From assembly GCF_013363995.1 (NCBI RefSeq), contig NZ_JABWGO010000004.1:496001-560000 (forward strand): DNA of 64,000 bases, in the 5' to 3' direction. Below, piece after piece: positions 46,409 through 59,718 of this stretch; within the stretch, counting starts at the first letter, position 1, and each line of letters begins with the position of its first letter. This DNA comes from Nonomuraea rhodomycinica. GTDB taxonomy: Bacteria > Actinomycetota > Actinomycetes > Streptosporangiales > Streptosporangiaceae. A model generated the notes under the pieces. It saw nothing but the letters and a program-made list of their open reading frames with translations, was not told the DNA's origin and searched no databases. The translations under genes and the position numbers were made by a program.

Positions 46409-47641
46409 ATGGGCCCCTACCTCCTCGGCCTGCGGCTTTCCGGTCGCCGGGTCCTCGTCGTGGGAGGAGGCCACGTCGCCCAACGCAGGGTCCCCGCCCT
46501 GCTGGAGGCGGGCGCGGTGGTCACCTTGGTGTCGCCCGGTGTCACCCCCGCCCTCGACGACCTCATCGCCGCCGGCCGCGTCACCTGGCACGCCCGGCCG
46601 TACGAGGTGGGCGACTGCGACGGCGCCTGGCTCGTCCAGGCCTGCACCGACGACCGGGCCGTCAACACGGCCGTCGCCGCCGAGGCCGAGGCCAAGCACA
46701 TCTGGTGCGTGCGCGCCGACGACAAGGACGCCTCCGCCGCCTGGACCCCCGCCTCCGGGCGCGTCGACGAGATCAGCGTGGCGGTCACCGCGGGCGGCGA
46801 CCCGCGCCGGGCCGCCGGCATCAGGGACGCCGTGGTCGGAGCCCTGCGCGACGGCACCGTGGACGCGCGCCGCAGCAGGACCAAGCCGGTGGGCGTCGCC
46901 CTCGTCGGCGGCGGGCCCGGCGACCCCGGGCTCATCACCGTGCGCGGCCGCCAGCTCCTCGCCCAGGCCGACGTCGTGGTCGCCGACCGCCTCGCTCCGC
47001 GCGCCCTGCTCGACGAGCTCGCGCCCGACGTCGAGCTCATCGACGCCGCCAAGGTCCCGTACGGCAGGTCGCTGGCCCAGGACAAGATCAACGAGATCCT
47101 CGTGGACCGGGCCCGGCAGGGCAGGTTCGTGGTGCGGCTCAAGGGCGGCGACCCGTTCGTGTTCGGCCGCGGCGGCGAGGAGATGATCGCCTGCGCCCGG
47201 GCCGGGATCCCCGTACTGGTCGTGCCGGGCATCACCAGCGCCGTCGCCGTGCCCTCCGCCGCCGGGGTTCCCGTCACCCACCGGGGCGTCAGCCAGGAGT
47301 TCCACGTGGTGTCCGTGCACGTGGCGCCCGACGACCCCGCCTCCACCGTCGACTGGCCCGCCATGGCCCGCTCACAGGGCACGCTGGTCCTGCTGATGGC
47401 CGTCGAACGGCTCGCCAAGGTGGCCGAGGCGCTCCTGCGGGACGGACGCTCACCGGAGACTCCCGTAATGGTGGTGCAGGACGGTACCCTTCCGACCCAG
47501 CGGACGGTTGTCGCTCCCCTCTCCACCGTGGCCGACCGCGTGTCCGCGGCCGGGATACGGCCGCCCGCCATCGTCGTCGTCGGTGATGTCGTCAGGGTCG
47601 GCCAGGAGGTCGAGATGGTTCGAGCGGAGCGCTTGCCGTGA
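46409..47641 (+). CDS. cobA: Uroporphyrinogen-III C-methyltransferase fused to siroheme dehydrogenase domain
   Basis: 410-residue CysG-like protein. Residues 1-150 are the precorrin-2 dehydrogenase/ferrochelatase-type domain with NAD site [11 protein letters not shown]; residues 160-400 are the SUMT methylase ([56 protein letters not shown]). It makes precorrin-2 for both siroheme and cobalamin. The stop overlaps the start of the GTPase gene as GTGA, tying tetrapyrrole and GTPase translation together. Confidence 0.93.
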
Positions 47642-49797
47642 GCACGGCCATGGATGACGGGCGCCCGGAGTCGCCGGGCGAGCAGACGTTGAGCTTCCGC
47701 GCCTTCGTGGACGAGGACGCCGCCGGGCCGGAGGCGGGGCATCCTGGCTCGGAGCCGCCGGCGGAGGCCGTACCGGAGCCTGAGCCGGAGCCTGAGCCGG
47801 AACTCGGCCCGGACCCGGAGCCGGACCCTGAGTCCGCACCCTCGCCCGGGCCTGTCGCCGAGGAAGCCGACGAGGCGGACGAGCCCGCTGAGCCGGAGGA
47901 GTCTCCTGAACCGGAGCCCGAGGCGTCCTCCGAGCCAGAACCGGAACCCGAGCCGGACCCCGCACCCGACCCCGAGCCGGACCCCGCATTCGAGCCTGAG
48001 CCGGAACCCGAACCTGAGCCCGAGCCTGAGCCTGAGCCGGAACCCGAAGCCGCGCCCGAGCCCGCGCCCGAGCCCGAGCCGGAACCCGAAGCCGCGCCCG
48101 AGCCGGCGTCAGTCAACGGCGTGCGCGCCGAGGTGGCCACCCGCGCCGAGGTGCACGTACTCCCCCCTGAGACCATCGCCGCCCTCACCTCCGCCCTCGA
48201 CACCCTCCGCCTCAGCGTCGCCGACCTCCGCTTCGGCCTGGACCTGCCCGGCGCCGACGAGGCCCGGCAGGCGCGCGCCGACCTCCTGACCCAGCTCCAG
48301 GACTACGTGCTGCCCCGGGTGCGCACCAGCACCGCGCCCGCCCTCATCGTGGTGGCCGGCTCGACCGGCGCGGGCAAGTCCACGCTGGTCAACTCCCTGG
48401 CCGAGAAGAACGTCTCCCGCACCGGCGTCCGCCGTCCCACCACCGGCGTGCCCGTCCTGGCCTGCCACCCGGACGACCAGCGCTGGTTCGCCGAGGGAGA
48501 GCTGCTCGGCGGCCTGCGGCGCATCGACAAGCCGACGCCCGACGCCGGTCCCGACAGCCTCGTCGTCGTGCCCACCGAGAAGCTGCCCCAGGGTGTGGCG
48601 CTGCTCGACACCCCCGACATCGACTCGGTCGTCGAGAAGCACCACGAGATCGCGCAGCGCATGCTCGACGCCGCCGACCTGTGGGTCTTCGTCACCACCG
48701 CCGCCCGCTACGCCGACGCGCCCGCCTGGAACCTCCTGCGCATGGCGAAGGAGCGCGGCGCCCGCCTGGCCATCGTCCTGTCGCGGGTCCAGCCGAAGGC
48801 GCGCGAGGTGGTGCTCAAGCACTTCGCCCGCATGCTCACCGAGTACGGCCTGGGGGAGATCGACCGGTTCGTCATCGGCGAGTCCAAGGTGGTCGACGGC
48901 CGGCTGCCCGACAGCGAGGTGACCGACCTGCGCCTGTGGCTGGCGGAGCTGTCGGTCGACGAGGAGCGGCGCGCGAAGGCCGTGCGGGAGACCCTGGACG
49001 GCGTGCTGAACAGCTTCCGCACCCGCGTGCCCGCCCTCGCCAAGCACATGGAGACCCAGGTCGCGTTCCGGACCGAGCTGCGTTCGGACGTGGACGCCGC
49101 GTACCGCAACGCGCTGGCCGACATCGACCGCGCCTTCCGCGGCGGCTCGCTCATCCACGGTGAGGTGCTCGCGCGATGGCAGGACTTCGCGGGCTCGGGC
49201 GACCTCATGCGCACGCTCCAGCTGCGCCGGCGCGGCCGGGCCGCCCGGCAGGCTCCCGAACGGGTGCTGGCGTTCCGTGCCGCGCTGCGCTCCGGCCTGG
49301 AGTCGGTGATCGTCGCCGCGGCCACGCGCGCCGCCGACGAGGTGGCGGCGCGGTGGCGCCACCGCTCGCCGCTCGGCGCGAAGCTGGTCGCGGACCTCGA
49401 CCGGCCCTCCGACGATCTCGTACGGCACGCCGCCCGCGCCATCGCCGCCTGGCAGGACCACGTCACCGAGCTGGTGCGTACGGACGGGGTGGCCAAGCGC
49501 TCGGTGTCCAAGCTGGTGTCGTTCGACGCCGACTCGCTGGCGTTGATCTTCATGGTGGCGATGTTCAGCGGTGTGACCACCGGGGTCGCGCACCGGCTGG
49601 TCAACGCGCTGCTGGGCGCCGAGTCGCTGCGCGGCATCGGCGCCAAGGCGCTCAGCGACCTGCGCGCCCGCATCGGGATGTTGTTCGACGAGGAGTCCAT
49701 GCGGTACGTGCAGGCGCTCGACTCGGCCGGGATCCCGGACGAGTCCATCGCGACGCGCCTCTACCAGGCCACGTACAACCTGGAGGTGGCGCGATGA
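47638..49797 (+). CDS. Dynamin-like/YfjP-type GTPase with long Pro-Glu repeat N-terminus
   Basis: 719-residue protein. Residues 40-158 are almost pure Pro-Glu with some Asp, Ala and Ser, in dipeptide periodicity. A GTPase domain follows: P-loop [10 protein letters not shown] (240-249), switch-like VRRPTTG, and ALLDTPDID as DxxG. The C-terminal half is helical with a hydrophobic patch ([27 protein letters not shown], about 630-655) suggesting membrane contact. In actinomycetes this gene is commonly paired with a second GTPase, as here. GTG start at the cobA stop. Function unknown; dynamin-type membrane work is a guess. Confidence 0.8.
47770..48110 (+). repeat. Pro-Glu codon repeat tract
   Basis: Imperfect 6-base repeats of GAGCCN/GAACCN inside the first GTPase gene, giving a rod-like acidic (PE)n segment. 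Confidence 0.9.
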
Positions 49798-49989
49798 CCG
49801 ACGCGCCGGCCCCCGCCACGCCTCTGGGGGTGAGCCGATGACGACCGCGCCGACCTCCACGAGGCCCCTGGGCGTGACCTGATGAACGACACCCCGACGC
49901 CCTCGGCGTGACCCGATGAACACCACCCCGACGACCCCCGGGACGACCCGATGAGCACGATGACGACGACCCCCGGCGTGACCCGATGA
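49794..49989 (+). other. Relay of five overlapping micro-ORFs between the two GTPase genes
   Basis: Five consecutive tiny ORFs, each starting with ATG: 49794-49841 ([15 protein letters not shown]), 49838-49882 (MTTAPTSTRPLGVT), 49882-49911 (MNDTPTPSA), 49916-49954 (MNTTPTTPGTTR), 49951-49989 (MSTMTTTPGVTR). The first ATG overlaps the stop of the upstream GTPase (ATGA), the last stop overlaps the ATG of the downstream GTPase (49986), and every internal junction but one overlaps (ATGA or TGATG; the exception is a 4-base gap). The repeat units are 44, 44, 34, 35 and 35 bases and look like diverged copies of the downstream gene start, which reads MSTMTTRPG. Translation would have to terminate and restart up to six times to reach the second GTPase. 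Confidence 0.75.
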
Positions 49990-51608
49990 GCACCATGACC
50001 ACCAGGCCCGGCCTCGCGCCGCGGCTCACCGCGCTCACCAAGCTCGTTGAGCTGGGCCCGGGGCGCCTGGAGCCCAAGCTGCTGGCCGAGGCGAGCACGC
50101 TGCTCAAGCGCGCCGGCGAGCGGCTCAAGCTGTCCTCGGAGCACACCGTGGTCGCGCTGGCGGGCGGAACGGGCAGCGGCAAGTCGTCGTTGTTCAACGC
50201 CGTCTCCGGGCTGGAGCTGTCGCCCACGGGCGTGCGCCGCCCCACCACGGCCCGTACCCACGCCTGCGTGTGGGGCCTGGAGGGAGCGGGGCCGCTGCTC
50301 GACTGGCTGCAGATCCAGGAGCGGCACCGGTTCACCCGCGCCAGCGCGCTCGACCGGGGCGAGAGCCAGCTCCACGGGCTGATCCTGCTCGACCTGCCCG
50401 ACCACGACTCGATCAGGGCGCTCACCGACAACGAGGCGGACCGCCTCATCGGCCTGGCCGACCTGGTGGTGTGGGTGCTCGACCCGCAGAAGTACGCCGA
50501 CGCCTCCACCCACCGCCGTTACGTCACGGAGCTCGCCGGGCACGACGCGGTGACGGTGTTCGCGCTCAACCAGGCCGACAAGCTGAGCGCCGAGGAGCTC
50601 GCCGAACTCGTCATCGACCTCAACGACCTGCTGCGCCGCGAAGGCGTCGAGCACCCGACGGTCGTCCCCACCTCGGCGACCACGGGACGCGGCATCGACA
50701 GCCTGAAGAGCGTCGTCGCGGCGGCGGTCTCGCGGCGCCGGGCGGCCATCCAGAAGATGGAGGCGGACCTGCACCGGCTCGAACAGCGGGTGGCCAAGTC
50801 CATGCCGGTGGGGGAGGCGCTGTCCGCGCCCTCGACGGTGGACGACGCCCGGCGGCTCGGGCTGACCGACGCGCTGTGCGACGCCGTGGGCGTCCCGGCG
50901 GTGGGCGAGGCCATGGAGAACGTCTACGCCGAGCGTTCCATGCAGTGGGTCGGCTGGCCGTACCCGCGCTGGATCTCCAAGCTGCGCCCCGACCCCGTCA
51001 AGACGCTGCGCCTGCAGGACGTCGGCGACGAGATCCGCGGCATCACCACGGGCACGGTCAGCGCGCAGACGGCGGAGGTCGTCAACGCGGTGCAGGCGCT
51101 GGCCGACGGGCTGTCGGCCGACATGCACCCGGTGTGGAGGACGTCCCTGCAGCACGCGGCGCGCTCGCACCTCAAGCAGCTCCCGCAGACGCTCACGCAG
51201 GAGCTGTCGGAGGTGGCGCCCCGGCTCGACCACGTGCCCGGCTGGTGGTGGCTGCTGAAGATCTGGCAGTACCTGCTCGTGGCGGCGTTCCTGCTGGGAC
51301 TGGGCTGGCTCGTGACCGGGCTGCTGTTCGCCGGCGAGTCGCCGCTGGGATTCCAGCTCCTGGGCGACACGGCGGCGCTCCCGTGGGTGGGGTTGATGAT
51401 GGCCTCCGTGCTCGGCCTGGGGGTGCTGTCGGGGATCGCCGCGCGCAACTTCGTGGAGCTGGGGGCGTCGAAGGAGCGCGAACGGCTGGAGCGGGAGATG
51501 CGGCGGCGCGTCGCGGCGGTGGCCGAGTCGTCGGTGGTGGAGCCGGTCGAACGCGAACTCGGCCGCCACCACGCCTTCTACACGGCCATGCGCGCCCTCG
51601 CGGGCTAG
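49986..51608 (+). CDS. Second membrane GTPase of the pair (YfjP/EngA-like G domain)
   Basis: 540-residue protein with G-domain motifs G1 GGTGSGKSS (60-68), G2-like VRRPTTARTH, G3 LDLPDHDS, G4 NQADK and G5-like TSATTGRG. Two hydrophobic hairpin segments (about 420-443 and 462-483) follow, then a charged tail, so the protein is probably inserted in the membrane by its C-terminal part. Paired with the upstream GTPase and reached through the micro-ORF relay. Its 3' end is itself part of a tandem repeat. Confidence 0.85.
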   Translation: MSTMTTRPGLAPRLTALTKLVELGPGRLEPKLLAEASTLLKRAGERLKLSSEHTVVALAGGTGSGKSSLFNAVSGLELSPTGVRRPTTARTHACVWGLEGAGPLLDWLQIQERHRFTRASALDRGESQLHGLILLDLPDHDSIRALTDNEADRLIGLADLVVWVLDPQKYADASTHRRYVTELAGHDAVTVFALNQADKLSAEELAELVIDLNDLLRREGVEHPTVVPTSATTGRGIDSLKSVVAAAVSRRRAAIQKMEADLHRLEQRVAKSMPVGEALSAPSTVDDARRLGLTDALCDAVGVPAVGEAMENVYAERSMQWVGWPYPRWISKLRPDPVKTLRLQDVGDEIRGITTGTVSAQTAEVVNAVQALADGLSADMHPVWRTSLQHAARSHLKQLPQTLTQELSEVAPRLDHVPGWWWLLKIWQYLLVAAFLLGLGWLVTGLLFAGESPLGFQLLGDTAALPWVGLMMASVLGLGVLSGIAARNFVELGASKERERLEREMRRRVAAVAESSVVEPVERELGRHHAFYTAMRALAG

Positions 51609-53198: not shown

Positions 53199-56081
53199 AT
53201 GGCGGCCCCTCGTCACACCCCGATCACGCCTCGCGACGGAGTGTCCACCCTGGTCGGCCGCTGGCCCCTCCTCGGGCAACGGCGTCCGCTCGTGGTCTAT
53301 CTCGTCGGGATCGTGACTCTCGATCTCGTCGCGATCGTCCTGTTGGCGGTGTCCACCCCGCTCCGCTGGCCGGACATCATGGCGTTCGTCGCGCTCATGG
53401 CATGCGGTGCGGCGTGCATCGAGGCGACCAGACGTCTCGGCATGCCCGCCGGCGTCTCCCGCGACCTGCTCTCGGCGTGGTGGCTGCCGGTGGCACTGCT
53501 GCTGCCGTCCTTGTACGCCCTGCTCGCGCCGATCGTGTTGCAGATCCTCCTGCAATGGCGGGTGAGGGCGACGGTGCTGCATCGCCGGGTGTTCAGCTCG
53601 GCCGCCATCGGGCTCGCGGGCTGCGCCGCCTCGATGACCTTCCACCGGCTGGTGCCCGATCCAGCGGCGCTGACCCGCGGCGCCATCGAGCCGATCGGCT
53701 GGGCGGTGGCAGCCGCCGTGGTGTTCGCCCTGCTCAACACGTCACTCATCGCCCTGGCCGCGCACATGGCCGATCCGGAGGTGCCGTGGCGCTCGGTCCT
53801 GTGGGACAAGGAGAGCGCCCTGCTCGACGTGGTGGAACTGTGTCTGGGCGTCAGCGTGGCCATCTCGGCCGGACTCAATCTCGTCCTGCTGATCCTCGCG
53901 CTGCCGCCCGTCGTGCTGCTGCAACGCAGCCTCCTGCATGCCCAGCTCCAGGCGGCCGCCCGCACCGACCCCAAGACCGGCCTGCTGAACGCGGCGGCGT
54001 GGCAGCGTGAGGCCGACACCGAGATCGTCCGCGCCCGGCGCACCGGCGAGACGCTGGCGCTCCTCATCGTCGACATCGACCACTTCAAACGGGTCAACGA
54101 CCGTCACGGCCACCTCGTCGGCGACCAGGTGCTGGCCGGAGTGGCGGCCACGCTGCGCAGCCAGCTGCGCGAGTACGACGTGGTAGGCCGCTTCGGCGGG
54201 GAGGAGTTCGTGGTCCTCCTGCCGGGGGCCGACGTCCACGAGGGGCGCCAGGTCGCCGAACGCCTCCGCAACCGGATCAGCCACATGGCGGTCGCCGCCG
54301 ACGACGACGCCATGATCACCGTGACGATCTCGGTAGGCGTCGCGATCATGAGCCTGCACGGCGACGATCTCATAGAGCTCCTGGCCGCCGCCGACCTGGC
54401 CCTCTACCGAGCCAAAGAACTGGGCCGCGACCGCATCTGCCTCCCCGTCATCCAGCCCACCCACCTCGCCGACCCCCAGACGGCCGCGATCCCCGTCCCC
54501 TCATTCCCCGAAGACCCACACCCTGAAGGCTCAACCCCGGAAGACCCACACCTCGAGTCTCCACACCCCGAAGGCTCGCGCGCGGAGGGCGCCCACTCGG
54601 ACGGCTCGCGCAAGGAAGGGGCGCGCGCGGAGCGAGAGCGCTCGGAAGGCTCGCGCTCGGAAGGGCCGCGCGCGGAGGGAGAGCACTCGGAGAGCTCGCG
54701 TTCGGCAGAATCATGCTCGGAAGGGCCACGCCTCGAAGGCTCGGGTCCGGAGGGGGCGCGCTCGGAGGACTCGACCTCGGAGGAGGCGCGCTTCGGGAGA
54801 TCGGCCTCGGAAAGCCCGCGCCCTGAAGAGTCAGGCCCTGCAGAGTCAGGGCCTGCCGAGTCGCGCTCGGAAGGGTCGCGTCTGGGAGATTCACGCGTGG
54901 AGGAGGTGCGCTCCGAGGGCTCGGGTTCGGACGGTGCGCGCTTGGAGAGGCCACGCCTTGAGGATTGGGGCTCGGAGGGGGCTCGCTCGAAAGGCTCACG
55001 CCCTGACGAGTCACGCTTGGAAGGGTCACGCCTCCAAGACTCATCCCCGTCGCCAGACCGCCCACCGCACCCGGACCTGTATTCAATGCCGGATCCCTCG
55101 TCCGCCCCGCACTCTTACGTGACGCGGGACTGCCCCTCAGACCCGGCCACCGATCCAGGGCCGGACTGCGCGCTGGTGACCGATGCCTATCCAGGGGCGG
55201 ACTGTTCACTGATCACTGATGCCTATCCGGGGTCGGAACCTTCGCTGCCCCTGGAGGCTTCTGCCGGGCCGGATCGTTCGCCGGCCACGGACGCTTATCC
55301 GGGGTCGGGTTGTTCACCGATCGCGGAGCTTCACTCGACGTCGGAGCGTTCACTGGAGTCAGTGTTCGGCTCATCTTCGGACGGTGGCTCACCTGTCCCA
55401 GACCCTCATCCATGGGCCGACCCTTCACCAGAACCGGAGCCACGCTCGGCGCCGGACCGTCCACCGATCCCGGGCTCGTCGCACATCCCAAAGCCCCCAG
55501 CCACCCCCGATCACTCCCTGACGGAAGACTCCCCGCTCGCAGGGTCCTCGGTCTTTTCGATCATCCAGGGGTCGCCTCCAGCCCCAGAGCCGTGGACCCC
55601 CACTGAGCCGCCGCAGACGGACGAACCTCAGCCGACACCTCCACAGCTCTCAGACCACCCTCCACATACGGGAGCGACCCCCGACGCCGGCCATCCGGCC
55701 ACACCCGAATGCTCCGATCTCCGCGACAGGCCAGCGCCAGTCGATCAGCCGCCGACGACGCAGATTTCGTTCTCATCTGCTGAGCCTCCACAAGCCGCCG
55801 ACCCGCCAGAAGCCATCGATCAAGCTTCTGTCGACGGCCCACTGCCGCTCATTGAGCGTCCACATATTGATGAGCAGCCTCAGAGTGACGAAGCGCCACG
55901 GGTGGTCGAATCCCCAAGTGCTGTCGTCGTCCGACAGGCACCGGATCGCGGCTTCGCGCAGCACGACGCCGACCCGCATCTCGCCTCCGATCCGTCGCTG
56001 CCGGACACAGCCTCCGCGCCCACCAGTGATCGGCCCACCGGGAGCGACAAGACGGGCGCCGGCGACGAGCCGGTCACATGA
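53199..56081 (+). CDS. Membrane diguanylate cyclase with very long disordered C-terminal tail
   Basis: 960-residue protein. Residues 30-245 contain six or more transmembrane helices, residues 255-415 a GGDEF domain with intact GGEEF (333-337), metal Asp in VDIDHFKRVN and inhibitory-site RxxD (Arg324-Asp327), so it should make cyclic di-GMP. Residues 425-960 are low complexity: first about 190 residues of (S/A)EG(S/P)R-type repeats rich in Ser, Glu, Gly and Arg, then Pro/Ser/Asp-rich sequence with DAYPGS/DAYPGA recurring three times. ATG 53199 follows GGAGGAGA. No EAL domain. The tail is not a known GGDEF partner. Confidence 0.85.
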   Translation: MAAPRHTPITPRDGVSTLVGRWPLLGQRRPLVVYLVGIVTLDLVAIVLLAVSTPLRWPDIMAFVALMACGAACIEATRRLGMPAGVSRDLLSAWWLPVALLLPSLYALLAPIVLQILLQWRVRATVLHRRVFSSAAIGLAGCAASMTFHRLVPDPAALTRGAIEPIGWAVAAAVVFALLNTSLIALAAHMADPEVPWRSVLWDKESALLDVVELCLGVSVAISAGLNLVLLILALPPVVLLQRSLLHAQLQAAARTDPKTGLLNAAAWQREADTEIVRARRTGETLALLIVDIDHFKRVNDRHGHLVGDQVLAGVAATLRSQLREYDVVGRFGGEEFVVLLPGADVHEGRQVAERLRNRISHMAVAADDDAMITVTISVGVAIMSLHGDDLIELLAAADLALYRAKELGRDRICLPVIQPTHLADPQTAAIPVPSFPEDPHPEGSTPEDPHLESPHPEGSRAEGAHSDGSRKEGARAERERSEGSRSEGPRAEGEHSESSRSAESCSEGPRLEGSGPEGARSEDSTSEEARFGRSASESPRPEESGPAESGPAESRSEGSRLGDSRVEEVRSEGSGSDGARLERPRLEDWGSEGARSKGSRPDESRLEGSRLQDSSPSPDRPPHPDLYSMPDPSSAPHSYVTRDCPSDPATDPGPDCALVTDAYPGADCSLITDAYPGSEPSLPLEASAGPDRSPATDAYPGSGCSPIAELHSTSERSLESVFGSSSDGGSPVPDPHPWADPSPEPEPRSAPDRPPIPGSSHIPKPPATPDHSLTEDSPLAGSSVFSIIQGSPPAPEPWTPTEPPQTDEPQPTPPQLSDHPPHTGATPDAGHPATPECSDLRDRPAPVDQPPTTQISFSSAEPPQAADPPEAIDQASVDGPLPLIERPHIDEQPQSDEAPRVVESPSAVVVRQAPDRGFAQHDADPHLASDPSLPDTASAPTSDRPTGSDKTGAGDEPVT
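54460..55330 (+). repeat. Degenerate coding repeats in the cyclase tail
   Basis: Imperfect 15-18-base units on the theme TCGGAAGGCTCGCGC (54580-55040), followed by longer units around GATGCCTATCCAGGG (55180-55310). Both are in frame and cause the low-complexity protein tail. Confidence 0.8.
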
Positions 56082-56229: not shown

Positions 56230-56281
56230 AATCTCGCAAGATCAGCTGGCTGGCACCCGTGGTGAGCACGCGTGGTGAACC

Positions 56282-56390
56282 GAGCTGGTCGTCAGGCGTG
56301 GTCAACGGCGTTGCCGTCACGCATGGTCAGCACCGAGCTGGCCGTCACGCATGGTCAGTATCGAGCTGGCCGTCACGCATGGTCAGTACC
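56282..56390 (-). repeat. 28-bp tandem repeat over the end of the ABC ATPase gene, with two micro-ORFs
   Basis: Four units: 56282-56309, 56310-56334, 56335-56362, 56363-56390, on the theme GAGCTGGCCGTCACGCATGGTCAGTACC. The two rightmost cover the last codons of the ABC ATPase (MRDGQLDTDHA-stop). Because 28 is not a multiple of three, the copies restart out of frame: 56352-56317 encodes MRDGQLGADHA and 56324-56292 encodes MRDGNAVDHA, each overlapping the previous stop by eight bases (ATGCGTGA). The ATPase C-terminus was probably redefined by the duplication. Confidence 0.85.
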
Positions 56391-57022
56391 GTGTCCACAG
56401 CCGACAGACTGGCCAGGTCGTGCGTGACCATCACCGTGGCCAGGTCGTTGCGCCTGGTCAGCTCGGCCAGGAGGGAAACGACCCGCTCGCCGCGCTCATG
56501 GTCGAGCGCGCTGGTGGGTTCGTCGACGAGCAGCACCTCAGGCTCGTTCATCAGGGCGCGGGCGATGTTGACCCGCTGCCTCTCACCGCCCGACATCTGG
56601 TGCGGCCGCTTGTGCTCCTTGCCGCCCAGGTCCACGGACAGCAGCAGCTCACGGGCCCGGGCAGCCGCCGCGCGGAGTGAGCCGCCGGCCAGGTGCGCCA
56701 CAACCAGCAGCTGGTCGAGGGCGGTGAGCGAAGGCAGCAGGTTCGCCTGCTGGAACACGATCCCGACGTGGTCGCGGCGAACGCGGGTCCTGGCCGCCTG
56801 GCCCATGGCCGACACCTCTTGTCCGGCCACGGACACGGTGCCGGAGGTGGGAGTGATCAGGGTGGCGGCCACAGCCAGCAGACTGGACTTGCCCGAGCCT
56901 GACGGCCCCACGACGGCGGTGAACTCCCCAGGAGCGACCGCCAGGTCGACGTGGTCGAGCGCGGTCAGCGTCCGGTCGCCATCGGGGTAGGTCAGGACGA
57001 TGTCGGTGAGCTTCAGTGTCAT
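56345..57022 (-). CDS. ABC transporter ATP-binding protein (MacB/DevA-like)
   Basis: 225-residue ATPase: Walker A GPSGSGKSS, Q-loop GIVFQQANLLPSLTALDQLLV, signature MSGGERQRVNIARAL, Walker B VLLVDEPTSALD, H-loop VTHDL. Partner of the FtsX-like permease upstream, from which it is separated by a 268-base micro-ORF relay. The ATG sits on the stop of the last micro-ORF (ATGA) with GGAG eight bases upstream. The last residues lie in a tandem repeat. Confidence 0.92.
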   Translation of the reverse strand: MTLKLTDIVLTYPDGDRTLTALDHVDLAVAPGEFTAVVGPSGSGKSSLLAVAATLITPTSGTVSVAGQEVSAMGQAARTRVRRDHVGIVFQQANLLPSLTALDQLLVVAHLAGGSLRAAAARARELLLSVDLGGKEHKRPHQMSGGERQRVNIARALMNEPEVLLVDEPTSALDHERGERVVSLLAELTRRNDLATVMVTHDLASLSAVDTVLTMRDGQLDTDHA

Positions 57023-57294
57023 CGGGATGCTCCGGGGGTGGTGCACGGGTCGAGGGAGTCCGCGGGATTCCATGTCATGGGGACTCCTGGGGTGGTCAGC
57101 GAGGTCAACGAGTCGGTGGGGTTGGGTGTCATTGCGCTGTTCTGGGGGCGTTGAGCGGGCCGAAGAGTTCGGTGGGGTTCGTCGGCGTCATCGGGAAGTC
57201 TCCTGGCCGGCCTGGGCGGACGAGGGGCCGGCGGGGTTGGGTGTCATTGGGGTGGTCTGGGTGGGCCGGGGGAGACGGCGGAGGTGAGGGTCAC
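57019..57294 (-). other. Relay of overlapping micro-ORFs between permease and ATPase genes
   Basis: Minus strand, in order: 57294-57244 (GTG; MTLTSAVSPGPPRPPQ), 57247-57188 (MTPNPAGPSSAQAGQETSR), 57191-57129 (20 codons, starting MTPTNPTELF), 57132-57019 (37 codons). The last is an in-frame doubling: 57132 MTPNPTDSLTSLTTPGVP, then 57078 MTWNPADSLDPCTTPGASR. All five junctions, from the permease stop (GTGA at 57294) to the ATPase start (ATGA at 57022), are four-base start/stop overlaps. AGGAG or GGAG precedes the starts at 57294, 57191, 57078 and 57022. The units begin like the ATPase (MTLKLTD) and two end like the permease (GASR), so they look like diverged copies of the original gene junction. 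Confidence 0.8.
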
Positions 57295-58352
57295 CGGGAT
57301 GCTCCGAGGGCGGTCAGGGGGTCGACGGAGGTGATCTTGCGGATGGCCAGTGCCGCCCCGAGGGCGCCGAGCGCGACCATGACCGCGACGGGCAGGACCG
57401 TGGTGGCCACCGACAGCACGAACGGGACCGTGCCCTTCGCCACCGCTCCGAGCGCCGCTCCCAGCGCGCCGCCGATGCCGGCCCCCAGGAGAAGGACGAT
57501 GACGGCCTGGGCCAGCGCGTCGAGCAGCAGGTAGCCGGTGCTCGCGCCGAGCGCCTTGAGCACGGCGACGTCGGCGCGCCGCTGGATCGTCCAGACGGTG
57601 AAGAACGCGCCGATGACCAGCGCGGAGATCGCGAACAGGAACCCGCGCATGAGCTGGAGCGAGCCGTTCTCCGAGGTGAACGAGCCGATGGCGGCGGGCG
57701 CGTCGGACAGGGGGACGGTCATGGTGCCCAGCCGCTTGTCGGCCCCCGCCAGGTCGGGCGTGCCGTCGGTGCGCAGGGCCAGGACGGTCGCCACGGTGTC
57801 GGCGCCGCTCTGGCGGCCCAGCCATTCCCAGTCGTCGATGCTGATCCAGGCGACGGGGGTGTGGCTGTAGGAGGCGGCGCCGCCGGTACCGGCGACGGTG
57901 AGGTCCCGGCCGGCGAGCTGCACCTTGTCGCCGACGGCGAGGCCGCTGTCGGCGGCGAGTGCGCTCGACAGCACGATCTTGCCTGTGCCGACCGACGGCG
58001 GGGACAGCTCGCCGCCGGGCTGGACGCCGAAGACGGCCGCCGCGGCGCCGGAGTCGCCGTAGCTGAGCCGTCCCATGGAGACGCCGAGCCGCTCGGCGGT
58101 GACGCCGCCCACCTTGCGCCATTCCTGCCAGGTCCGGTCGGTGATGCGGCTGTCGGAGAAGGCGGGCTTGTCGCCGCCGGCGAAGACGACGTGGTCGGCG
58201 GGCAGGTTCTCCACCGCCGAGATGTTCTCCTGGGCCAGCCCGGCGGTGAGGCCGGACAGCATGGTCACCAGCAGCGTGATGAGGAAGACGACCCCGCCCA
58301 TGAGGGCGAAGCGCCCCTTGGCGAAGCGCAGGTCTCTGAGCGCCACGAACAC
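57291..58352 (-). CDS. FtsX/DevC-like ABC permease
   Basis: 353-residue permease: N-terminal helix (VALRDLRFAKGRFALMGGVVFLITLLVTMLSG), a periplasm-type domain of about 190 residues, then three C-terminal helices (GFLFAISALVIGAFFTVWTIQRRADVAVLKALGAS, then two more). This is the MacB/DevC topology used in tripartite-like or peptide exporters. GTG 58352 has GGGGGG about seven bases upstream. It ends ...ALGASR with the TGA overlapping the first micro-ORF. Confidence 0.88.
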   Translation of the reverse strand: MFVALRDLRFAKGRFALMGGVVFLITLLVTMLSGLTAGLAQENISAVENLPADHVVFAGGDKPAFSDSRITDRTWQEWRKVGGVTAERLGVSMGRLSYGDSGAAAAVFGVQPGGELSPPSVGTGKIVLSSALAADSGLAVGDKVQLAGRDLTVAGTGGAASYSHTPVAWISIDDWEWLGRQSGADTVATVLALRTDGTPDLAGADKRLGTMTVPLSDAPAAIGSFTSENGSLQLMRGFLFAISALVIGAFFTVWTIQRRADVAVLKALGASTGYLLLDALAQAVIVLLLGAGIGGALGAALGAVAKGTVPFVLSVATTVLPVAVMVALGALGAALAIRKITSVDPLTALGASR

Positions 58353-58515
58353 GGCGCAGCCCCCCGTTGTGTATGGGTTGGACACGGACCAATCCAGGCT
58401 GGGGCAGCCGGTCGGGCCTGTGCGTCGCTCCTTCGGCCCGGCTGGAATACACCTTTTGTACGATGTGGCGCACGACGGGCCTCGCCTAAGCTGAGCAGGA
58501 CATGCTGAGCGAGAG

Positions 58516-59718
58516 ATGATGGACTTTCCGTTCCCGCCCGCCCTCCGGCTCCTGAGATGGGCCATCCACGGCACGTTCGCGATCCTCCTGGTGATCGCGG
58601 TCGCCGGAGTCGCACGAGAGGGACGCGGCGTCCTGGCGGTGGGCGGCGTGCTGCTGCTCGTCCTCTACGCGGCCGGGATCGTCGTCGAGGGGCGGCTGCC
58701 GCACTTCGGCGGGCGCACGCACCTGCTGCTCGGCCGGATCTGGCTGGTGACGGTCACCCTCGGCTGGGCGGCGCTGGTGCTGGCCGCGCCGCAGTTCGTC
58801 TGGCTGGCCTTCCCGCTGTTCTTCGCCTACCTCCACCTGCTGCCGCTGGCCGTCGCGCTGCCCGGGGTGGCCGTGCTGACGGTGGGAGCCATCGGGGCGG
58901 CCGGCTGGCACACCGGCACGATGACCGCGGCCCAGGTGATCGGGCCCACGATCGGCGCGGTCGTGGCCACGCTGATGGCGCTGGTCTACAAGGCCCTGTA
59001 CGTCGAGAGCGAGCAGCGCCGGATCCTGATCGACGACCTGGTACGCACCCGCGGCAAGCTCGTCGAGGCCGAGAGCGACGCCGCCCGGCTGACCGAGCGC
59101 GAGCGCCTGGCCAGGGAGATCCATGACACGCTGGCGCAGGGCATGTCCAGCATCATCCTGCTCCTGCGCGCCGCCCGGCGCGACCTGACCGACCATCCGG
59201 ACGAGGCCGCGCTGCGCATCGCCGAGGCCGAGCGGGCGGCGCAGGACAACCTGGAGGAGGCGCGCAACTTCGTCAGGGCGCTGGCCCCGCCCGCCCTGCA
59301 GCACTCCTCGCTGACCGCCGCGCTGCGCCGGATCAGCGAGGCTGCCGTCGCGGGCAGCGCCACACGGACGCGCTTCGAGGTGTCCGGCGTGCCGGTGCCC
59401 TTGCCCGCCGACTACGACCTGGTGCTGCTGCGGGTCGCCCAGGGCGCGCTGGGCAACGTCAGCCGACACTCCGGGGCCGCCAACGGCCGGGTGACCCTCA
59501 CGTACCTGGACGACATGGTGGTGCTGGACGTCTACGACGACGGGCGCGGCTTCGACCCGGACCGGCCCAGGAACCCGAAGACCGGCACCGGGTACGGGCT
59601 GCGGGTCATGCGCGACCGGGTGACCGCCCTCGGCGGGACCCTCACCGTCGAGTCGGCCCCCGGCGAGGGAACCGCCGTCGCCGCCACGCTGCCGTTGCCC
59701 GCGAGGGAGGTACGGTGA
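58516..59718 (+). CDS. NarL-family sensor histidine kinase
   Basis: 400-residue kinase with five or six N-terminal transmembrane helices (15-160), a HisKA_3 dimerisation domain with phosphoacceptor His203 (REIHDTLAQGM) and a C-terminal HATPase (LLRVAQGALGNVSRHSG N-box, DDGRGFDP, GTGYGLRVMRDR). Divergent from the ABC permease by 163 bases; the pair with the following response regulator probably senses the substrate of that exporter. ATG 58516 or 58519. Confidence 0.92.
   Translation: MMDFPFPPALRLLRWAIHGTFAILLVIAVAGVAREGRGVLAVGGVLLLVLYAAGIVVEGRLPHFGGRTHLLLGRIWLVTVTLGWAALVLAAPQFVWLAFPLFFAYLHLLPLAVALPGVAVLTVGAIGAAGWHTGTMTAAQVIGPTIGAVVATLMALVYKALYVESEQRRILIDDLVRTRGKLVEAESDAARLTERERLAREIHDTLAQGMSSIILLLRAARRDLTDHPDEAALRIAEAERAAQDNLEEARNFVRALAPPALQHSSLTAALRRISEAAVAGSATRTRFEVSGVPVPLPADYDLVLLRVAQGALGNVSRHSGAANGRVTLTYLDDMVVLDVYDDGRGFDPDRPRNPKTGTGYGLRVMRDRVTALGGTLTVESAPGEGTAVAATLPLPAREVR

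Follow-up and report, generated by a model that had tools for sequence, protein, structure and literature searches.

On the minus strand of the 64,000-nt window of Nonomuraea rhodomycinica DNA (the whole stretch analysed here), the 268-nt gap between the gene of an FtsX/MacB-type permease and that of its ATPase is tiled by four micro-ORFs, linked to one another and to both genes by five 4-nt stop/start overlaps, one GTGA and four ATGA. The repeated unit reproduces the joint, having been made by tandem duplication across the ATGA overlap; further duplications of this kind are seen here in other lineages and at additional joints of the N. rhodomycinica genome. We regard the array as probably a self-made spacer, filtered by reading frame, at a translationally coupled joint: slippage would multiply the stop/start joint, and a reading-frame filter would keep the hand-over of the ribosome. 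The features of this joint are as follows.

57291 to 58352, minus strand: ABC permease with FtsX C-terminal and MacB_PCD domains (Pfam PF02687 and PF12704 on 57291-58481).
57244 to 57294, minus strand: micro-ORF 1, 16 codons, GTG start with GGAG 7 nt 5' of it (sequence, relay trace and SD scan).
57188 to 57247, minus strand: micro-ORF 2, 19 codons, ATG start without SD match (relay trace and SD scan).
57129 to 57191, minus strand: micro-ORF 3, 20 codons, ATG start with AGGAG 8 nt 5' of it (relay trace and SD scan).
57019 to 57132, minus strand: micro-ORF 4, doubled, 37 codons, start at 57132 without SD match (relay trace and SD scan).
56345 to 57022, minus strand: ABC transporter ATPase (Pfam PF00005, 4.4e-35; orthologs with the same start).

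The permease start is uncertain, being called at 58352 in a frame that is open to 58574; its stop codon (TGA, 57293-57291) overlaps the start of micro-ORF 1. Starts then follow at 57294 (GTG), 57247, 57191, 57132, 57078 (an in-frame internal ATG) and 57022 (the ATPase), with spacings of 47, 56, 59, 54 and 56 nt, or 2, 2, 2, 0 and 2 modulo 3, so that the geometry given in the preliminary description, four micro-ORFs (one doubled) and five overlaps, proved exact. With their stops the micro-ORFs measure 51, 60, 63 and 114 nt, and their products are VTLTSAVSPGPPRPPQ, MTPNPAGPSSAQAGQETSR, MTPTNPTELFGPLNAPRTAQ and the doubled MTPNPTDSLTSLTTPGVPMTWNPADSLDPCTTPGASR. The second, in-frame unit of micro-ORF 4 begins at ATG 57078 with AGGAG 5 nt upstream, and the ATPase ATG at 57022, which overlaps the stop of micro-ORF 4, has GGAG 7 nt upstream. 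On the opposite strand, next to the permease, Pfam recognizes a histidine kinase together with a response regulator that carries a LuxR-type domain.

A ribosome ending the permease would terminate on the first overlap, restart and read a micro-ORF, and termination and restart would be repeated overlap by overlap until the ribosome stops on the ATPase start. Coupling would in this way survive a 268-nt insertion that would otherwise weaken or break it, and ATPase synthesis would depend on the relay. When a 4-nt overlap is copied with a length of 3n+2, the result is a micro-ORF opening on the stop before it and closing on the start after it; a copy of length 3n adds an in-frame N-terminal extension, and one of length 3n+1 carries the ribosome past the start in the wrong frame. 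Selection would act on arrival at the ATPase start, by relay or in frame, and not on the peptides, with the sequence and number of the units free to churn.

The origin of the units was evident from their make-up. The last one consists of the ATPase head (ATGACA..., about 27 nt) followed by the permease tail (...GGAGCATCCCG, about 29 nt), the succession of downstream head and upstream tail that marks a tandem duplication straddling the junction, and across the five units column identity averages 68%, 12 columns being invariant. Compared phase-blind, the upstream-stop and downstream-start flanks of this junction scored 22, against a maximum of 17 among 3000 random pairs. No dispersed copy of the array was found in the genome of N. 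rhodomycinica, where the self match (1.6e-135) was followed by a next best match of 0.004 over about 42 nt. Among 177 candidate junctions sampled from this genome (1.66 Mb), six are clear duplications, two in relay phase, four in frame and none out of frame or broken; by phase alone, six unbroken joints out of six have a probability of (2/3)^6 = 0.09. These counts use the phase-blind list only; 7 of the 12 rows of an earlier list from the same genome had been chosen for their relay or in-frame path. One of 45 junctions was a clear duplication in the sister species G060, namely the ABC array, and one of 43 exceeded the threshold in G014, with CTGA upstream and no relay. Three two-unit relays were also seen at other joints of the N. 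rhodomycinica genome (35+35, 41+41 and 38+38 nt; G000:C44 near 587545 (+) and near 192965 (-), and G000:C11 near 366380 (-)), and only the 35+35 relay, at G000:C44 near 587545 (+), passes the phase-blind threshold.

Tandem repeats called by TRF make up 8.9% of the intergenic DNA in the sampled part of the N. rhodomycinica genome (1.66 Mb), 8.6% in that of G060 and 4.1% in that of G014 (0.4 Mb). Genic tandem periods of at least 10 nt in N. rhodomycinica are mostly multiples of 3 (377/409), and intergenic periods are distributed 59/38/34 over 0, 1 and 2 modulo 3. Slippage debris had been named in the preliminary description as the competing explanation of the array; duplication is indeed where the units come from, but it is no alternative to the relay, and a frame filter acting on the copies may be selected.

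To place the array among relatives, the ATPase was searched in 41 genomes (N. rhodomycinica included), which gave eight relatives with best matches of 53-96% identity; G060 was added by synteny. Seven of the nine (G022, G023, G014, G005, G001, G016 and G008) have a direct ATGA overlap at this joint, and G009 has a single extra unit of 47 nt, a relay composed of a permease-tail copy (30/35 nt) and a head (9/12). In G008 (L008) the direct overlap is followed at once by in-frame repeats of the ATPase head, each about 27 nt long. The genome of G060 shares 93-96% DNA identity with N. rhodomycinica in most of the long collinear stretches listed (mean 92.2% over 78 matches), and its ABC gap of 351 nt holds six ATGAC-headed units spaced by 57, 89, 52, 51, 53 and 53 nt, that is 0, 2, 1, 0, 2 and 2 modulo 3. 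Read from gene to gene, the gap is a complete relay of two longer micro-ORFs with steps of 146 and 209 nt. A scan of 54 genomes of the genus for the pattern ATGAC-N-ATGAC-N-ATGAC was uninformative, as all 54 matched, many in plainly coding sequence.

Between N. rhodomycinica and G060, 210 of 261 aligned columns of the two arrays match (105 gap columns), compared with an average of 199.9/255.6 for 20 shuffled pairs, so the arrays align no better than shuffled sequence. The 600-nt flanks on either side give 567 and 562 matches. With the arrays at shuffle level and the flanks well matched, the content of the array has turned over while the hand-over stayed. The earlier idea that the overlaps had persisted while the sequence drifted, with each unit held in ATGA phase, is not supported by the unit spacings of G060, and seven of the nine relatives, G022 included, have no array. 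On these spacings, what N. rhodomycinica and G060 conserve is the end-to-end hand-over and not the phase of each unit. The relay part of that interpretation gained from the same comparison, given a G060 gap that is differently built and still a complete relay, and the 47-nt unit of G009; taken as a whole, the first interpretation is partly supported.

The ABC relay is not a chance string. A complete relay of at least four micro-ORFs arose in 39 of 5000 dinucleotide shuffles of the gap interior, and 1.66 Mb of the 9.6 Mb genome, with 555 same-strand junctions of gap 8-600, showed two relays of this size against 0.13 expected and at most 1 in 100 shuffles. The second of the two is an array at a GTPase joint in the same window. 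Chains counted anywhere in the sequence, rather than from gene to gene, are fewer in real DNA than in shuffles, and for this reason later counts were restricted to gene-to-gene relays. A relay nevertheless arises easily from a stop/start joint that is already duplicated.

The GTPase joint comprises the following features.

47638 to 49797, plus strand: upstream dynamin-like GTPase (Pfam Dynamin_N, 7.9e-12).
49794 to 49989, plus strand: second relay array, six micro-ORFs (relay trace).
49986 to 51608, plus strand: downstream GTPase (Pfam, weak Dynamin_N and a GTP_EFTU match).

Here the steps are 44, 44, 26, 8, 35 and 35 nt (gap 49798-49985), and the last micro-ORF stops on the start of the downstream GTPase, an ATGA at 49986. 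The joint is a relay in all three sister species with differing units, the steps being 80, 35, 8, 35 and 35 in N. montanisoli SMC 257 (G022) and 101, 77 and 35 in G060. The 30 best loci of the genus (54 genomes) comprise 25 direct overlaps, two in-frame shifts of the matched start and the three arrays. When the best 80 of 559 loci were considered, 48 were direct overlaps, 21 relays, six in frame and two broken, two had no usable upstream stop and one no upstream sequence. Twenty of these best 80 are shorter relays outside Nonomuraea (19 single, one double), and it is the presence of short relays at the same joint in other genera that makes the GTPase joint a better case than the ABC array. Their lengths are 41 (four species) and 53 in Planotetraspora, 62 (five) and 53 in Microbispora, 41 and 173 in Sphaerimonospora, 92 in Planomonospora and in Planobispora siamensis, 47 in Actinomadura, and 59, 23 and 23 in Actinoallomurus; the genera with relays at this joint belong to one order. 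Two Planobispora species have a direct overlap. One base has been lost at the joint of Microbispora rosea (L258), where a GTGA in another frame catches the shifted reading and gives a relay of 50 + 11, and in Streptosporangium minutum and S. canum (L239, L241) a spacer is present with the chain broken and a TAA shortly upstream of the GTPase start. Loci scored as in frame look like direct overlaps whose start was called too late in four cases (L240, L242, L245 and L290) and are probably the same in two (L265 and L299), and the loci labelled 'nostart' (L259, L264) are probably miscalled upstream genes.

Changes of length at the GTPase joint bear on whether reading frame is filtered. In a FastTree phylogeny of the GTPase (82 rows; weak support at 25 of 79 inner branches), with the states of N. 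rhodomycinica, G060, L239 and L241 set by hand, relay lengths change at least six times in one clade (14 loci) and twice in a second (4 loci), in every case from relay to relay. Random indels of 1-30 nt keep the relay in 50% of cases and leave another 32% in frame, so that the chance of eight changes all remaining relays is about 0.004 at a keep-probability of 0.50, and 0.21 if in-frame outcomes are counted as equal.

A phase test was performed on parts of three genomes (1.66 Mb of N. rhodomycinica, 0.4 Mb of G060 and 0.4 Mb of G014), comparing junctions whose upstream stop overlaps a start codon ([AGT]TGA) with a CTGA control, each with an xTGA start downstream. Gene starts came from a codon-usage caller with a bonus for xTGA starts that is the same in all classes. 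For gaps of 8-400 nt, in-frame, out-of-frame and relay phases numbered 35/24/49 (relay 49/108) against 54/51/39 (39/144) for CTGA (Fisher 0.003); the corresponding counts were 17/6/26 against 22/10/8 for gaps of 8-60 nt (0.002) and 30/18/42 against 38/36/29 for gaps of 8-150 nt (0.011), the three values being uncorrected for the choice of limit (60, 150 or 400). Across the three genomes, enrichment of the relay phase was absent from the CTGA class and from the TAA/TAG upstream-stop classes. By genome the relay phase accounts for 32/76 junctions in N. rhodomycinica (p 0.11 alone), 5/13 in G060 and 12/19 in G014; the pooled p value is optimistic, because N. rhodomycinica and G060 hold orthologous junctions.

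Full relays were found at 33 of 76 N. rhodomycinica junctions (33 rather than the 32 of the phase count, probably because the scripts differ in trimming near ends or in one-base overlaps), compared with 17.1±3.1 after random deletions of 1-2 nt, where none of 200 replicates reached 33, and with 25.2±2.4 in length-preserving shuffles. The same deletion test gave 11/19 against 3.9 in G014 and 5/13 against 3.3 in G060. In a second sample of 1.52 Mb, made up of the named loci other than L221 and three short ones (76 of 80), with one count per orthologous junction and length, the phases were 24/17/30 (relay 30/71) against 39/31/27 (27/97), p 0.07, and without the GTPase joint 22/16/22 (relay 22/60), p 0.29. 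The evidence for a frame filter is moderate (p 0.003-0.004) and weakly replicated: the direction agrees between samples, the strength does not replicate well.

After one simulated random indel of 1-2 nt the N. rhodomycinica ABC array remains a relay in 57% of cases and becomes in frame in 33%, the G060 array in 77% and 4%, and the three GTPase arrays remain relays in 79-84%; across these five large arrays the in-frame share runs from 4 to 33%. The three two-unit arrays of N. rhodomycinica keep the relay in only 10-27% of random indels, and the single-unit bridge of G009 in 0.00 of 1000 frameshifting indels. Overlaps in several phases make an array intrinsically tolerant of indels in this simulation, and several units in different phases would, in the simulation only, buffer later frameshifts. 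Since large arrays mostly stay relay or in frame after random indels, the ABC array alone proves no selection, and it is the one-unit bridges and the phase test that carry the evidence for a filter.

The proposal that the micro-ORFs yield a family of short peptides is disfavoured. Over four groups with 13 loci, the columns that vary in micro-ORFs of the GTPase joint are spread over codon positions 1/2/3 as 18/18/14, compared with 50/37/160 (Microbispora group) and 14/8/87 (Planotetraspora) over 1200 nt of the GTPase gene, and the peptides accordingly look unconstrained as far as codon positions can tell. On this variation a reading by peptide function was rejected. SD-like matches of at least 4 nt precede 4 of 6 starts in the N. 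rhodomycinica ABC array (ATPase included), 1 of 7 in the ABC array of G060 and 1 of 7 in the N. rhodomycinica GTPase array; direct overlaps of this genome have them in 118 of 196 cases and random positions in 416 of 2000. As SD matches are missing at many array starts, each restart would have to work without one. In the GTPase array GGAGGTG precedes the first micro-ORF, and the GTPase start itself has no upstream SD match of even 3 nt, an arrangement in keeping with a relay; G022 has the same 18 nt upstream of its GTPase start as N. rhodomycinica, and G060 shows no match by eye. A scan of 56900-58600 for sigma-70-like promoters, covering this one promoter type, gave no hit, and a terminator scan of the same interval gave none. 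RNA folding of the array is unremarkable (z -0.71, a stability reached by 22 of 100 shuffles), and Rfam gives no match up to E 1, results that speak against a structured RNA element or riboswitch as a candidate.

Pure neutral debris is a somewhat unlikely but serious alternative. Here slippage copies the joint, the relays are incidental, translation of the ATPase begins de novo at its own GGAG, and the micro-ORFs are idle; relays would appear because every copy of an ATGA joint includes a stop and a start and the copies stand in several phases. The tolerance of large arrays to simulated indels is in keeping with this, as are the frequency of intergenic tandem repeats (8.9% in the 1.66 Mb of N. 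rhodomycinica, 4.1% in the 0.4 Mb of G014), the seven of nine relatives without extra units at the ABC joint, and the GGAG retained 7 nt upstream of the ATPase, which together with a promoter scan limited to one type leaves room for de novo initiation. One-unit bridges are less robust (0.00 for G009), yet those at the GTPase joint stay relays through at least eight length changes, and an excess of the relay phase is seen with upstream stops that overlap a start codon but in neither the CTGA nor the TAA/TAG class; both observations count against debris and for a frame-filtered spacer. A mutational phase bias, improbable in our judgement, would produce the relay phase without selection if slipped pairing of codon-periodic gene ends favoured 3n+2 copies. 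By reasoning, the frames in a 4-nt overlap differ by one base and codon-matched mispairing would give 3n+2; the phase-blind duplicate joints of N. rhodomycinica are however four in frame and two relay, intergenic tandem periods show no such excess (59/38/34 for 0, 1 and 2 modulo 3), and later length changes inside the spacer would be left unexplained.

Two functional readings fare worse. A regulatory device, in which five successive restarts dampen ATPase synthesis or set its timing with respect to the permease, would draw on the multiplication of restart efficiencies below 1, a matter of inference only; it is very improbable given that the number and lengths of the steps differ between sisters (four against two micro-ORFs, none in G022) and that neither the fold (z -0.71) nor Rfam points to an RNA element. 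Functional short peptides are hardly credible: the related first residues within the array (MTPNP and the like) are the likeness expected of duplicated DNA, a third-position excess is missing at the GTPase joint (18/18/14), and alignment of the two sisters' ABC arrays does not rise above the shuffle level. Beyond the frame-filtered spacer itself lies a wider proposal that we advance tentatively, as doubtful: stop/start joints may multiply into hypervariable arrays that act as frame-agnostic ribosome funnels, in which overlaps in several phases would re-phase the ribosome after almost any indel, so that coupling would be inherited while the sequence turns over completely between sisters. Locus-born relays might then be a general means by which these actinomycetes preserve coupling over insertions, reached independently of the mobile MIRUs (mycobacterial interspersed repetitive units).

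Intergenic variable-number tandem repeats arise by slippage and turn over fast, and the array shares this origin and fast turnover; unlike them, its units carry a stop/start joint, and it is the units that reading frame appears to filter. Termination-reinitiation at 4-nt overlaps is treated in PMC6728339 and PMC10666635, and each joint of the array is the same standard ATGA or GTGA overlap. A 4- or 1-nt stop/start overlap, the mark of a coupled pair, is present five times in the array (4 nt each) and as a direct overlap in seven of nine relatives. The coupling cases described there join two genes directly, whereas here the joint is multiplied and one to six micro-ORFs bridge 19-351 nt. According to PMC10666635, gaps of about 20-38 nt all but abolish coupling in native pairs; this fall-off, within about 20-40 nt, is the problem a relay would solve. 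The same paper cites synthetic constructs whose coupling persisted over gaps from 73 to 850 nt, and it cites ribosome-profiling work that doubted reinitiation as the main mechanism; if coupling survives long gaps, or reinitiation is not the main mechanism, no relay is needed.

The closest known systems are the MIRUs, which PMC12548453, a 2025 review, describes as intergenic units with a small ORF coupled to a gene by a 4-nt overlap, as in senX3-regX3, where the unit lengths given in PMC4213456 are 77 and 53, both 2 modulo 3. The array has intergenic units with small ORFs coupled by 4-nt overlaps, as in the definition of PMC12548453, and its make-up varies between sisters as unit make-up does between the MIRU-bearing strains covered there. 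MIRUs are portrayed in that text as repetitive and apparently mobile, whereas the array units are made from local gene ends; no interspersed family at many loci, and no other copy, was found in the N. rhodomycinica genome. We file the array under translational coupling; it has the architecture of a MIRU relay and may work like one. With the short upstream ORFs discussed in PMC12548453 it would share the delivery of a ribosome to a coupled gene, not a peptide, as the proposed function, with the difference that its frames are placed between two genes, the upstream of which would supply the ribosomes. A literature search that reached few subscription journals found no report of locus-born relay arrays.

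Sister spacers that differ in length, sequence and unit phase with the relay grammar kept are natural experiments on whether ribosomes are handed over locally at overlaps or scan between genes. They suggest how coupled pairs may tolerate insertions and how 4-nt overlaps may multiply and move apart in evolution. Conservation of such micro-ORFs would lie in frame and position and not in the peptide, and annotation and small-protein screens would misread them.

Two further repeat regions were seen in the window. At 56279-56391 the 3' end of the ATPase gene is covered by tandem 28-bp repeats, which reiterate the final codons (LTMRDGQL...) and extend beyond the stop. At 54506-55237 the C-terminal half of a GGDEF protein consists of degenerate 15/30/45-bp repeats, and N. 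montanisoli has other repeats in that place.
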